Positions 58,497-61,339 of a stretch of DNA of 64,000 nt are shown here, in pieces. Below the pieces are notes generated by a model that was not told the DNA's origin, ran no database searches, and worked only from the letters and a program-made list of their open reading frames with translations. Location: the NCBI RefSeq assembly GCF_026210795.1, contig NC_089438.1:434001-498000 (forward strand). Direction: 5' to 3'. The first letter of the stretch is position 1; each line of letters starts with the position of its first letter. The translations under genes were made by a program, and so were the position numbers. Origin of the DNA: Rhizophagus irregularis. Taxonomy: Eukaryota; Glomeromycota; Glomeromycetes; Glomerales; Glomeraceae.

Positions 58497-61339
58497 ATGG
58501 CAACTAGAAGAATTAATAAAGTATATTTATTGTTGTTTCATTTTTTACAGCTTTAGTTTTATTGTGATTTTTCAACTATGGTTTTGATAATTTCACTTAT
58601 TAATTTTTAATCTATATATTAGGAATTAAGAGATTTAGAAAATGACCCACCGTCATTTTGTAGTGTTGGTCCTGTCGAAGATGATCTTTTTCATTGGGAA
58701 GGGACAATCATGGGCCCTGTAAGTACTTTTTAGCAGCTTATGTATCAAACTTTATACAAATGTATAAAAGACTCACGCAATTCTGTTTCTATACCTTTAA
58801 TTAGTCTGACTCACCATACTCGGGTGGTGAGTTTAGTCTTGATATTCATTTTCCTCTAGATTATCCGTTTAAACCACCAGCGGTATTTTTATTTTTATAT
58901 TTAGCATACTTTAATTGGGCACTTATTCACATGTTATACATACTAGATTGAGTTTATAACAAGAATTTACCATCCGAATATCGACAGTAATGGACATATA
59001 TGCATGGATATTCTACATGAAGAATGGTCGCCAGGGTTTACTATTTCAAAAGGTAAATTTGCTACAATATTGTTGCAATTCTTTTTATGTAAGAATTTAA
59101 TCAACTCTTTATTATTTAAGTACTATTGTCAATTTATTCATTGTTGACCGATCCAAACCATGGTATATTATTATTCTATCATCTTACTCGTCATTTCCTT
59201 GACTGATTTCTCTTATTCTTACTAATATAAACAATTAATATTAATAGATAATCCATCTGTACCTGAAATTGCTCATGTGTATAAAAATAATCGTAACCTT
59301 TATGAATTTATTGCTAGGAATTGTATTCGCAAAGATGCTGAAAGTAAATATAGTTAATCTAATTAGGAAAACTCTGTTTTTTTATGATTCACTTATTTTT
59401 AAATTCTCTCTTTCTAAATAAGGCACTTGGTATTTGGAATATTTCAATAAAGAAATAAAACATCTCGGTTGTAGACTTCGCAAAAATATGGTCTGTAAAT
59501 TAATGGAAAATTCTGGCAATTCTCCATGTGGAAAAATCTATAATTTGAACGATAAGCCAATTGAAAATGCAATAATTCATTTGAAAAACTGTCATGACAT
59601 TATTGTTACCCAAGATGGAAAGGTAAATTTGGTTTAGTTTTTTATTCATTGTTAACTGAAGAAAATAAAACTATTATAAAATAATATACTGAATGGTTGT
59701 TAATCTTTCAATCCTTTCATAGTTGAAAAATTTCAAAGAACAAGAATTATTAGATACAAATGAAGATCAAAAAGAATTATGGGAATTATTTTCTGATTTG
59801 ATAATAGAAAATTCTCAATATATGGATACTATTTCAAGAACAAATTTTCATCAATTTATTCATAAACTCGATCCTGCTTTTATTATGCCATGTCAAGAAA
59901 CAGTAGATTCAATTATTCATGCATCCTATAACTCGTCATTTTCACAACTTCAGCAGCTTATCAAGAATGAAGCAACATCTATTTCTTTGGCAGTGGATCT
60001 CTGGAAAGCTAAAAATCATCAAGGTTATTTGGGTATCACATGCTCATTTTTGGATCAAAAATGTGAATTACGCGATGTTACCTTAGATGTTGCTTATGTT
60101 AGATATCCCCATACTTCAGAACATATATTGGATGCTCTTGAAGATGTGATATCCAGATGGAAAATTCGTGATTTAATATTTACTATTACAACCACTAATA
60201 AAAGTAATTTAAAATATGCAATTCTTAACATGAAAAAACCAAACTGGCTAGGTTGTATTGATCACACGTTACAACTAGTAATTGGAAAGGCATTGAAACC
60301 AGCTGAAGCATTAATAGCACGTGCTAAGCATTATGTAGATTGCTCGAAGCTAAATGAATTTCTTGAAGAGGATAATGTGGAAATTGTAAGTATATTTACA
60401 ATTATAATAATAATCAACCCATTTTTTTATGAATTGCGTCAATAACTTTATATATTATAGAAACCCGCAGAACTTTTACATACCATTATGAATTTTCCAA
60501 CAGTATGGTATCCGCACAGTCTCCCTCTAAAAAATCATGGGAAGTTTAGTAGGATCATGCTACATCAGAGTGAAGAAGAATTGATTCGGGATCTTCAATC
60601 AATTTTAAAGCCTTTTTTAGAAATTACTGAACTTATAAGAGAAGGCAACTATTGCACCTATTCTTTAATAAACCCTGCATTACTTGAAATTAAAAATAAT
60701 CTTTGTTTAGAAGGCAATAGCACAGTTCAAATTCAATCAACTTTTGGCAGAAGAATTCAACTTAATGGACCTGTAGATTGCACTGGCCTCATTGATAAGA
60801 TAAAACTTAATCTTTCTGCTGCTATAAATCATTATTGGAGAGATATTTTGGATCCAAATTTCACTCATTTTAGCATTTTAGATCCTAGAATAAAAAATTT
60901 ATCCTTTGTATCCTCTTCAATAAGACATGCAGCTGAAGATTTTTTGTATATAAAATATAGAGAAATTAGATCAACTATGGAAACTGAAACTGATACAAAT
61001 GGAGATAATGAGCAAAGCCAACAGAGAACAAGTTCAATCTTCGCTAGTTTAAAGAAACTAACTTTTCCCACACATGTTAATGAGTTTATCGAATACTTAA
61101 ATTTAGAAGAAATTGATTTGGAAAGTAATCCCTTTACATGGTGGAAAGAAAGAAAAGAAAAATTTCCCATTTTATACCGTATTGCTATGAAGTATTTATC
61201 TGTCTATACAACTTCAACTGTTAATGAAAAATTATTTTCTGATGCAAATAATTTAACAGATAAAGAGAATTCTGATTTATTTAAATACCTGATTTTTTTA
61301 AGACAAAATAATAAGAATTTAGAATCAATTCATCATTAA
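58497..61339 (+). CDS. Predicted E2 ubiquitin-conjugating enzyme - BED finger - hAT transposase fusion (copy 3)
   Basis: Nine exons join in frame to 727 residues: 58497-58520, 58623-58718, 58805-58882, 58947-59052, 59121-59162, 59248-59343, 59423-59622, 59723-60385 and 60461-61339. Residues 1-147 are a diverged UBE2D-like E2 with HPN 75-77 and Cys85 (HICMDIL), but Asp117 is Asn (NHDNP). Residues 148-214 form a BED-like finger (TWYLEYF, cysteines, HLKNCH). Residues 215-727 are a hAT transposase: VDLWK (Asp near 306), ITTTN near 372 where family members have [22 protein letters not shown] and VNEKLFS. The 79-bp intron 59344-59422 links E2 to the finger. If it is retained, the E2 stops at TAA 59357 (151 residues). 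The transposase frame has no ATG before its WxxxYF motif, which favours the fusion. Catalysis of transposition is doubtful. Confidence 0.72.

Follow-up and report, generated by a model that had tools for sequence, protein, structure and literature searches.

A small family of genes on one contig of the Rhizophagus irregularis genome very probably encodes E2 ubiquitin-conjugating enzymes joined, through a splice junction, to a zinc-finger and hAT transposase tail. The member described in most detail occupies positions 58497-61339 on the forward strand of the window, which is the whole 64,000-nt stretch of DNA that was analysed (C10:434001-498000, from an assembly of 146.7 Mb in 32 contigs). The contig carries six more such tails, at about 311 to 542 kb, so that all seven lie within about 231 kb. 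The sequences suggest that ubiquitin machinery, or else an imitation of it that is inactive, is now delivered to DNA by a tamed transposase. Taken as a whole, a host-transposase fusion gene family with the history and function set out below is the explanation that we rate best, with moderate confidence; its functional component, a DNA-tethered E2 or E2-like platform, is given slightly less than an even chance.

The fused gene and its predicted splice junction

The initial annotation read the gene as running in frame from an E2 into a BED finger and hAT transposase, and this reading is borne out. The rebuilt model has nine exons (58497-58520, 58623-58718, 58805-58882, 58947-59052, 59121-59162, 59248-59343, 59423-59622, 59723-60385, and 60461-61339), which together comprise 2184 nt with the stop and encode 727 residues, with no internal stops and with GT-AG borders at every intron. 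Pfam domains are recognised in both head and tail, and comparison across the family finds the same junction in all seven copies. That the two parts are spliced together in vivo is what these features of the DNA predict.

The first six exons (58497-59343, forward strand) make up an E2 head of the UBE2D/Ubc4 type, as judged from the gene model, Pfam, and alignment to Ubc4. The Pfam UQ_con match (6.8e-49) spans residues 5-140 of the window protein and covers 1-138 of the 140 domain positions, which amounts to a full UBC domain. Structures of Ubc4 and UBE2D are the closest, with a Ubc4 chain matching the window E2 at 8.3e-68 and the alignment extending over residues 1-146. Like these enzymes, the window copy has both the HPN motif, with its Asn at N77, and the active-site Cys that had been assigned to it, at protein position 85 (codon TGC, 59001-59003, forward strand). 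Unlike them, it carries a transposase tail of about 580 residues and has Asn at position 117, where the solo reference has Asp.

The transition from head to tail occurs across intron 6, a 79-nt intron (59344-59422, forward strand) with the donor GTAAAT at 59344 and the acceptor TAAATAAG ending at 59422, both just as first annotated. Head and finger exon are joined in phase 1. As a donor GTAAAT, which also serves introns 4 and 7 of this gene, falls short of the best consensus. Retention of intron 6 would terminate the E2 at a TAA at 59355-59357, giving a protein that ends DAESKYS*. In the frame of the tail, the window sequence has a TAA within the acceptor and then no ATG up to the TWYLEYF motif. 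The tail had been thought unable to start alone ahead of its finger, and the family supports this throughout: in all seven copies the frame of the tail runs from its nearest upstream stop to the finger with no ATG, that stop lying at the acceptor or, in the copy termed L007, a few codons earlier.

Exon 7 (59423-59622, forward strand) was initially called a BED finger, and homology is what supports this call. Free hAT transposases of this genome, for example L032, have a homologous first exon, and their finger positions C, C, H, and H are retained in all six fused tails compared. However, Pfam gives no BED-finger match for exon 7, and the first exon of L032 has itself a weak zf-BED match (0.0054) that falls below the cut-off; the exon is called BED-like here. 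Exon 8 (59723-60385, forward strand) contains the hAT transposase core, with the first Asp kept and the second substituted, the codon ACT (Thr) at 60194-60196 standing in place of the Asp of the TTDN motif found in most free relatives. The last exon (60461-61339, forward strand, with the stop at 61337-61339) encodes the hAT C-terminal dimerisation region, seen as a Pfam Dimer_Tnp_hAT match at residues 649-707 (9.7e-11); the fused copies L005 and L008 match this domain too.

The junction is a shared property of the seven fused loci (the window copy and L005 through L010; counts from the genome searches are lower bounds). Donor and acceptor are at identical positions in all seven, and intron 6 is 79-100 nt long, with L010 having GTGATT as its donor. 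The distance from the acceptor to the first aligned finger codon varies from 5 to 89 nt, the linker of the window copy being exceeded by 23 codons in L008 and by 28 in L010, and this distance leaves the same remainder modulo 3 in every copy. Between these conserved borders the aligned interior of the intron averages 61% identity, and the exon stretches that flank it average 72% and 74% (15 pairs from six copies, gaps excluded).

A native E2 stop just past the donor is retained in five of the seven copies, and because of this retention a second, E2-only product is possible. One gene might then make two products, an E2 with its native C-terminus when intron 6 is retained and the E2-BED-hAT protein when it is spliced. 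The retained stops match the ends of solo E2s such as L017 (ASKYN*) and L025b (ASSKYN*). That said, L008 and L010 no longer have the stop at this place, the codons ahead of the donor are constrained by the donor itself, and recent exchange of heads with solo E2s (see below) could preserve the stop without selection. Two products from one gene are accordingly rated as somewhat unlikely.

A single tail on E2 heads of mixed origin

In a tree of the tails, the six fused tails form a single clade (100/100) with respect to five free relatives; the tree and the counts of Asp and finger residues all have n = 6, since they omit the truncated L009. By this comparison the tail arose once. Its free counterparts were drawn from 15 loci outside C10 (L031 through L045), one of which, L031, is counted apart to leave 14 free loci, several of them near copies of each other (L032 through L034). 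The second catalytic Asp, that of the TTDN motif, is gone from all six fused tails and is retained in 12 of the 13 free loci that cover the motif (L037 excluded), with L043 as the exception. On the alignment, the fused tails lack the full Asp/Asp/Glu set of an active hAT transposon. The conservation of these positions was measured directly; the acidic residues serve in hAT catalysis. Because the second Asp has been lost while the Cys and His of the finger stay, the tail is a tamed transposase, one that is probably unable to cut DNA and may still bind it.

In the 4.4-5.2 kb surrounding each of the 14 free loci, the search for an E2 found none. The start of the finger is visible in nine of them (L032, L034, L036, L038, L039, L041, L042, L043, and L045), and an in-frame ATG lies upstream of the finger, within one and the same open frame, in five of these nine (L032, L036, L039, L041, and L043), being missing in L034, L038, L042, and L045.

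The heads belong to a large set of UBE2D-like E2 genes, for the most part local, which includes three in the window (48980-49687, 52786-53599, and 58497-59343) and the loci L011 through L030 on C10, C14, C11, C5, and C19. Two of the window genes are solo paralogues on the forward strand with Ser at the active Cys: W49 (48980-49687), whose exon 1 is further upstream, and W53 (52786-53599), which is among the closest relatives of the window head. The terminal codons of solo E2s, such as those of L017 and L025b quoted above, hold a splice-donor consensus. The sequence GTRAGT occurs at the E2 end in 8 of 25 modelled solo loci, and the fusion donor is at the same place.

A single clade of E2 heads was the expectation, and it was rejected by the protein tree (p 0.024; 27 rows, six fused and 21 solo, with rows shorter than 120 residues plus L022 and L026 dropped) and by the DNA tree (6e-41; five fused heads, L007 and L009 being excluded, and 13 solo heads chosen from the 25 modelled). 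In the DNA tree, the window head is closest to the solo E2s about 5-10 kb upstream of it and to L028. Comparison of introns 2-5 of the window E2 with those of W49, W53, L028, and L005 reveals a patchwork of identity: introns 4 and 5 are 88-91% identical to W49/W53, and L005 matches them at about 60% but matches intron 3 at 89%. Since the E2 heads are not one clade, they have probably been exchanged, and the simplest reading of the patchwork is gene conversion or recombination within the array.

Heads of mixed origin could also mean that tails were joined to E2s several times independently, rather than once with later exchange of heads, and it is consistent with repeated joining that an E2 of the same array precedes kinase exons in a similar manner (L013). 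Repeated joining would have to account for tails that form one clade, that are uniformly without an upstream start, and that have in common their acceptor position and the loss of the Asp, and for heads whose patchwork identity is just what gene conversion predicts. Several separate joinings are unlikely on this evidence.

L013 (C10:324900-329500) has at about 526-2850 what resembles an E2-kinase fusion: an E2, a GTGAGT donor, about 90 nt of intervening sequence, a short exon of matching phase, and protein-kinase exons after it, whose frame seemingly has at least one break. Its likeness to L010 (81% identity) begins ahead of the ATG and ends within intron 6, past which the two diverge. If this arrangement is real, tails other than hAT have also been attached at the same donor. 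Kinase open frames are found about 1.5-3 kb downstream of the array E2s in L015, L017, and L020 as well, where they are probably separate genes. A wider and rather doubtful proposal is that the array is a module-swapping locus. The donor at the E2 end would let heads gain unrelated 3' tails, namely hAT in seven copies and apparently kinase exons in L013; gene conversion would reshuffle the heads; and the E2-hAT proteins would bring E2 folds, whether active or not, to the DNA sites that the old finger recognises, such as related hAT elements.

Integrity, constraint, and confinement of the copies

Four of the seven copies are open from ATG to stop, encoding 727 (window), 740 (L005), 733 (L006), and 758 (L008) residues, and the last three are 75-78% identical to the window copy with no frameshifts relative to its protein. 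Random change of 22-25% of the bases was simulated in 1000 trials each, and introduced on average 21.5, 22.1, and 28.9 stops, with a minimum of 9; these simulations load the entire pairwise difference on the window sequence, and the expectation for a single lineage is about half. The selection tests are confined to the four open copies, and their dN/dS values span 0.38-0.89 (E2), 0.42-0.88 (finger exon), 0.53-0.70 (exon 8), and 0.38-0.51 (exon 9). On bootstrapping, pN/pS has a range below 1 in five of six pairs for the E2, two of six for the finger exon, two of six for exon 8, and all six for exon 9. The fused genes are thus under constraint, which is modest and not strong. As expected of a host-transposase fusion gene, one reading frame joins both domains and is kept by selection, as judged by comparison of copies and with this modest level of constraint.

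The remaining three copies are damaged. In L007 (C10:522300-526600), an 856-nt stretch at 668-1523 splits the E2 head inside exon 4, and there are two frameshifts in addition. L009 (C10:539600-543900) is truncated and has five frameshifts, one of which sits in the last E2 exon, along with one stop, and L010 has a single frameshift and a single stop in its tail. A lone E2 5' half at 658-933 of L016 (C10:537500-539600) lies about 2.5 kb before the E2 3' half of L009 (1292 onward), and the two are perhaps a single fused copy broken by an insertion.

Damage to head or tail in three of seven copies, and the retention by the E2 of its own stop, are features that would also be seen if an ordinary E2 gene and a neighbouring, degenerating hAT transposase gene with a transcript of its own had been duplicated together. 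An E2 is found directly upstream and on the same strand in all seven C10 tails, with only its 3' half present in L009, and C10 has no tail of the fused type without an E2. The gap between the supposed genes is only 79-100 nt, the finger is without a preceding start codon in every copy, splice sites and reading frame have been preserved around an intron interior that is less similar, and four tails are still open; two genes are therefore improbable. Even less can be said for a hAT element that captured an E2 and moves it as cargo, a very improbable reading that draws on the abundance of hAT-related sequences and on a decayed piece of tail on another contig (C11) and that is opposed by the confinement of all E2-bearing copies found to about 231 kb of one contig, the loss of the second catalytic Asp in six of six, the lack of any terminal-repeat match in the fused copies searched, and the limits of the likeness between window and L005 copies. 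Both the two-gene and the cargo-transposon readings are largely rejected on this evidence.

The observations that bear on mobility are as follows. Sequences related to hAT are common in the genome, with at least 150 matches (150 of 401 candidates scored). The decayed piece, L031 (C11:4109500-4114500, about 1796-2215), is a short 3' fragment of a fused-type tail with 78-82% DNA identity; no E2 was found within the 5 kb around it, and it would seem to be a relic. The match between the window copy and L005 extends no further than about 50 bases ahead of the ATG on one side and about 115 past the stop on the other. One free hAT, L033, carries terminal repeats at 1278-1290 and 4781-4793 whose core is GGAATGGCATTAA, and this core occurs once each in L032 and L034. 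An exact search of 36 loci for this core, which represents the repeat of one free family and would let a different repeat escape, found it only in L032 through L034. Matches to it in the window with up to three mismatches are at chance level, and none of the 25 longest of 124 repeat pairs around the window copy is convincing, these being AT-rich and chance-like. The tail has probably lost its terminal repeats.

Possible function and relation to known fusions

The active-site Cys at position 85 is present in three of the seven fused copies (window, L007, and L008) and replaced in the other four, by Ser in L005, Gly in L006, Met in L009, and Asp in L010. Two of the copies without it, L005 and L006, are nonetheless open genes. 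Among solo E2s, the Cys is missing in 13 of the 24 covered at the active site. The initial annotation had envisaged a tail that would direct ubiquitin transfer to chromatin or to transposon ends, and as a general mechanism this is not supported: because the Cys is lost in four of seven copies, ubiquitin transfer cannot be the shared function of the family, and can be a property of some fused members only.

A scenario for the fusion family can be proposed that accommodates both kinds of copy. A hAT transposase without a start would have supplied the 3' half of an E2 gene, through a donor in the last codons of the E2 (A/GT RAG TAT before the native stop), with splicing bypassing that stop and entering the finger exon. 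From its single origin the tail has lost its catalytic Asp, and probably its terminal repeats, while keeping its zinc-finger and dimerisation parts. Local duplication within the E2 gene array would then have spread the tail, and recombination with neighbouring solo E2s would have exchanged or overwritten the heads. Comparison of the copies establishes four of these points: how the fusion is built, that its tail has one origin, that the catalytic Asp is gone, and that the heads are of mixed descent. In the likeliest mechanism, the resulting protein would dimerise through the hAT tail, bind DNA through the finger, and present the E2 fold there. In copies that bear the Cys, such as that of the window, the outcome could be active ubiquitin transfer; copies without it could offer only a UEV-like or decoy surface for an E3 or for ubiquitin.

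UEV proteins are E2 variants that are without the Cys, and the Cys-less E2 folds among the fused copies resemble them in this respect. They differ from UEVs in that the Cys has been replaced by S, G, D, or M within a UBE2D-like lineage and in the transposase tail attached to them. The window copy, with its Cys in place, is not a UBC fold of the UEV kind.

The best descriptions of transposase capture concern chromatin proteins and regulators of transcription, while the captured partner here is a core ubiquitin enzyme. According to one report (PMC12062965), SETMAR, KRABINER, and CSB-PGBD3 are host-transposase fusion genes, and F-box genes of Caenorhabditis nematodes have captured the HTH of Tc1/mariner elements. 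The first three resemble the present family in uniting a host domain and a transposase-derived DNA-binding part in one protein, and are unlike it in that here the host domain is an E2, the transposase is a hAT, the family is fungal, local, and multicopy, and the donor lies in the last coding codons of the host gene. The likeness to the Caenorhabditis genes is the capture of a transposase part by a multicopy family of the ubiquitin system; there an F-box adaptor acquired a Tc1/mariner HTH in nematodes, whereas here an E2 acquired a whole BED-hAT.

The family can be filed as a new form of host-transposase fusion. The claim that no E2-hAT fusion had been described agrees with the open-access literature matches listed, among which there was none, a result that falls short of proving absence; nor was there anything relevant among them on E2 expansion in Rhizophagus or on E2-transposase fusion. 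The locus illustrates how a protein may gain a new tail from a transposon next to its gene by way of a latent splice donor at the end of that gene, and its seven copies, which differ in their Cys and in the origin of their heads, make up a natural series on an E2 fold tethered to DNA.

One further feature concerns the sequence just before the finger. Seven free loci (L032, L036, L038, L039, L041, L043, and L045) have a short basic stretch there, of the KKT, RKLT, RKKR, RKRT, or KKRS-like kind; the fused family is without it, and could in this way have lost a nuclear signal.
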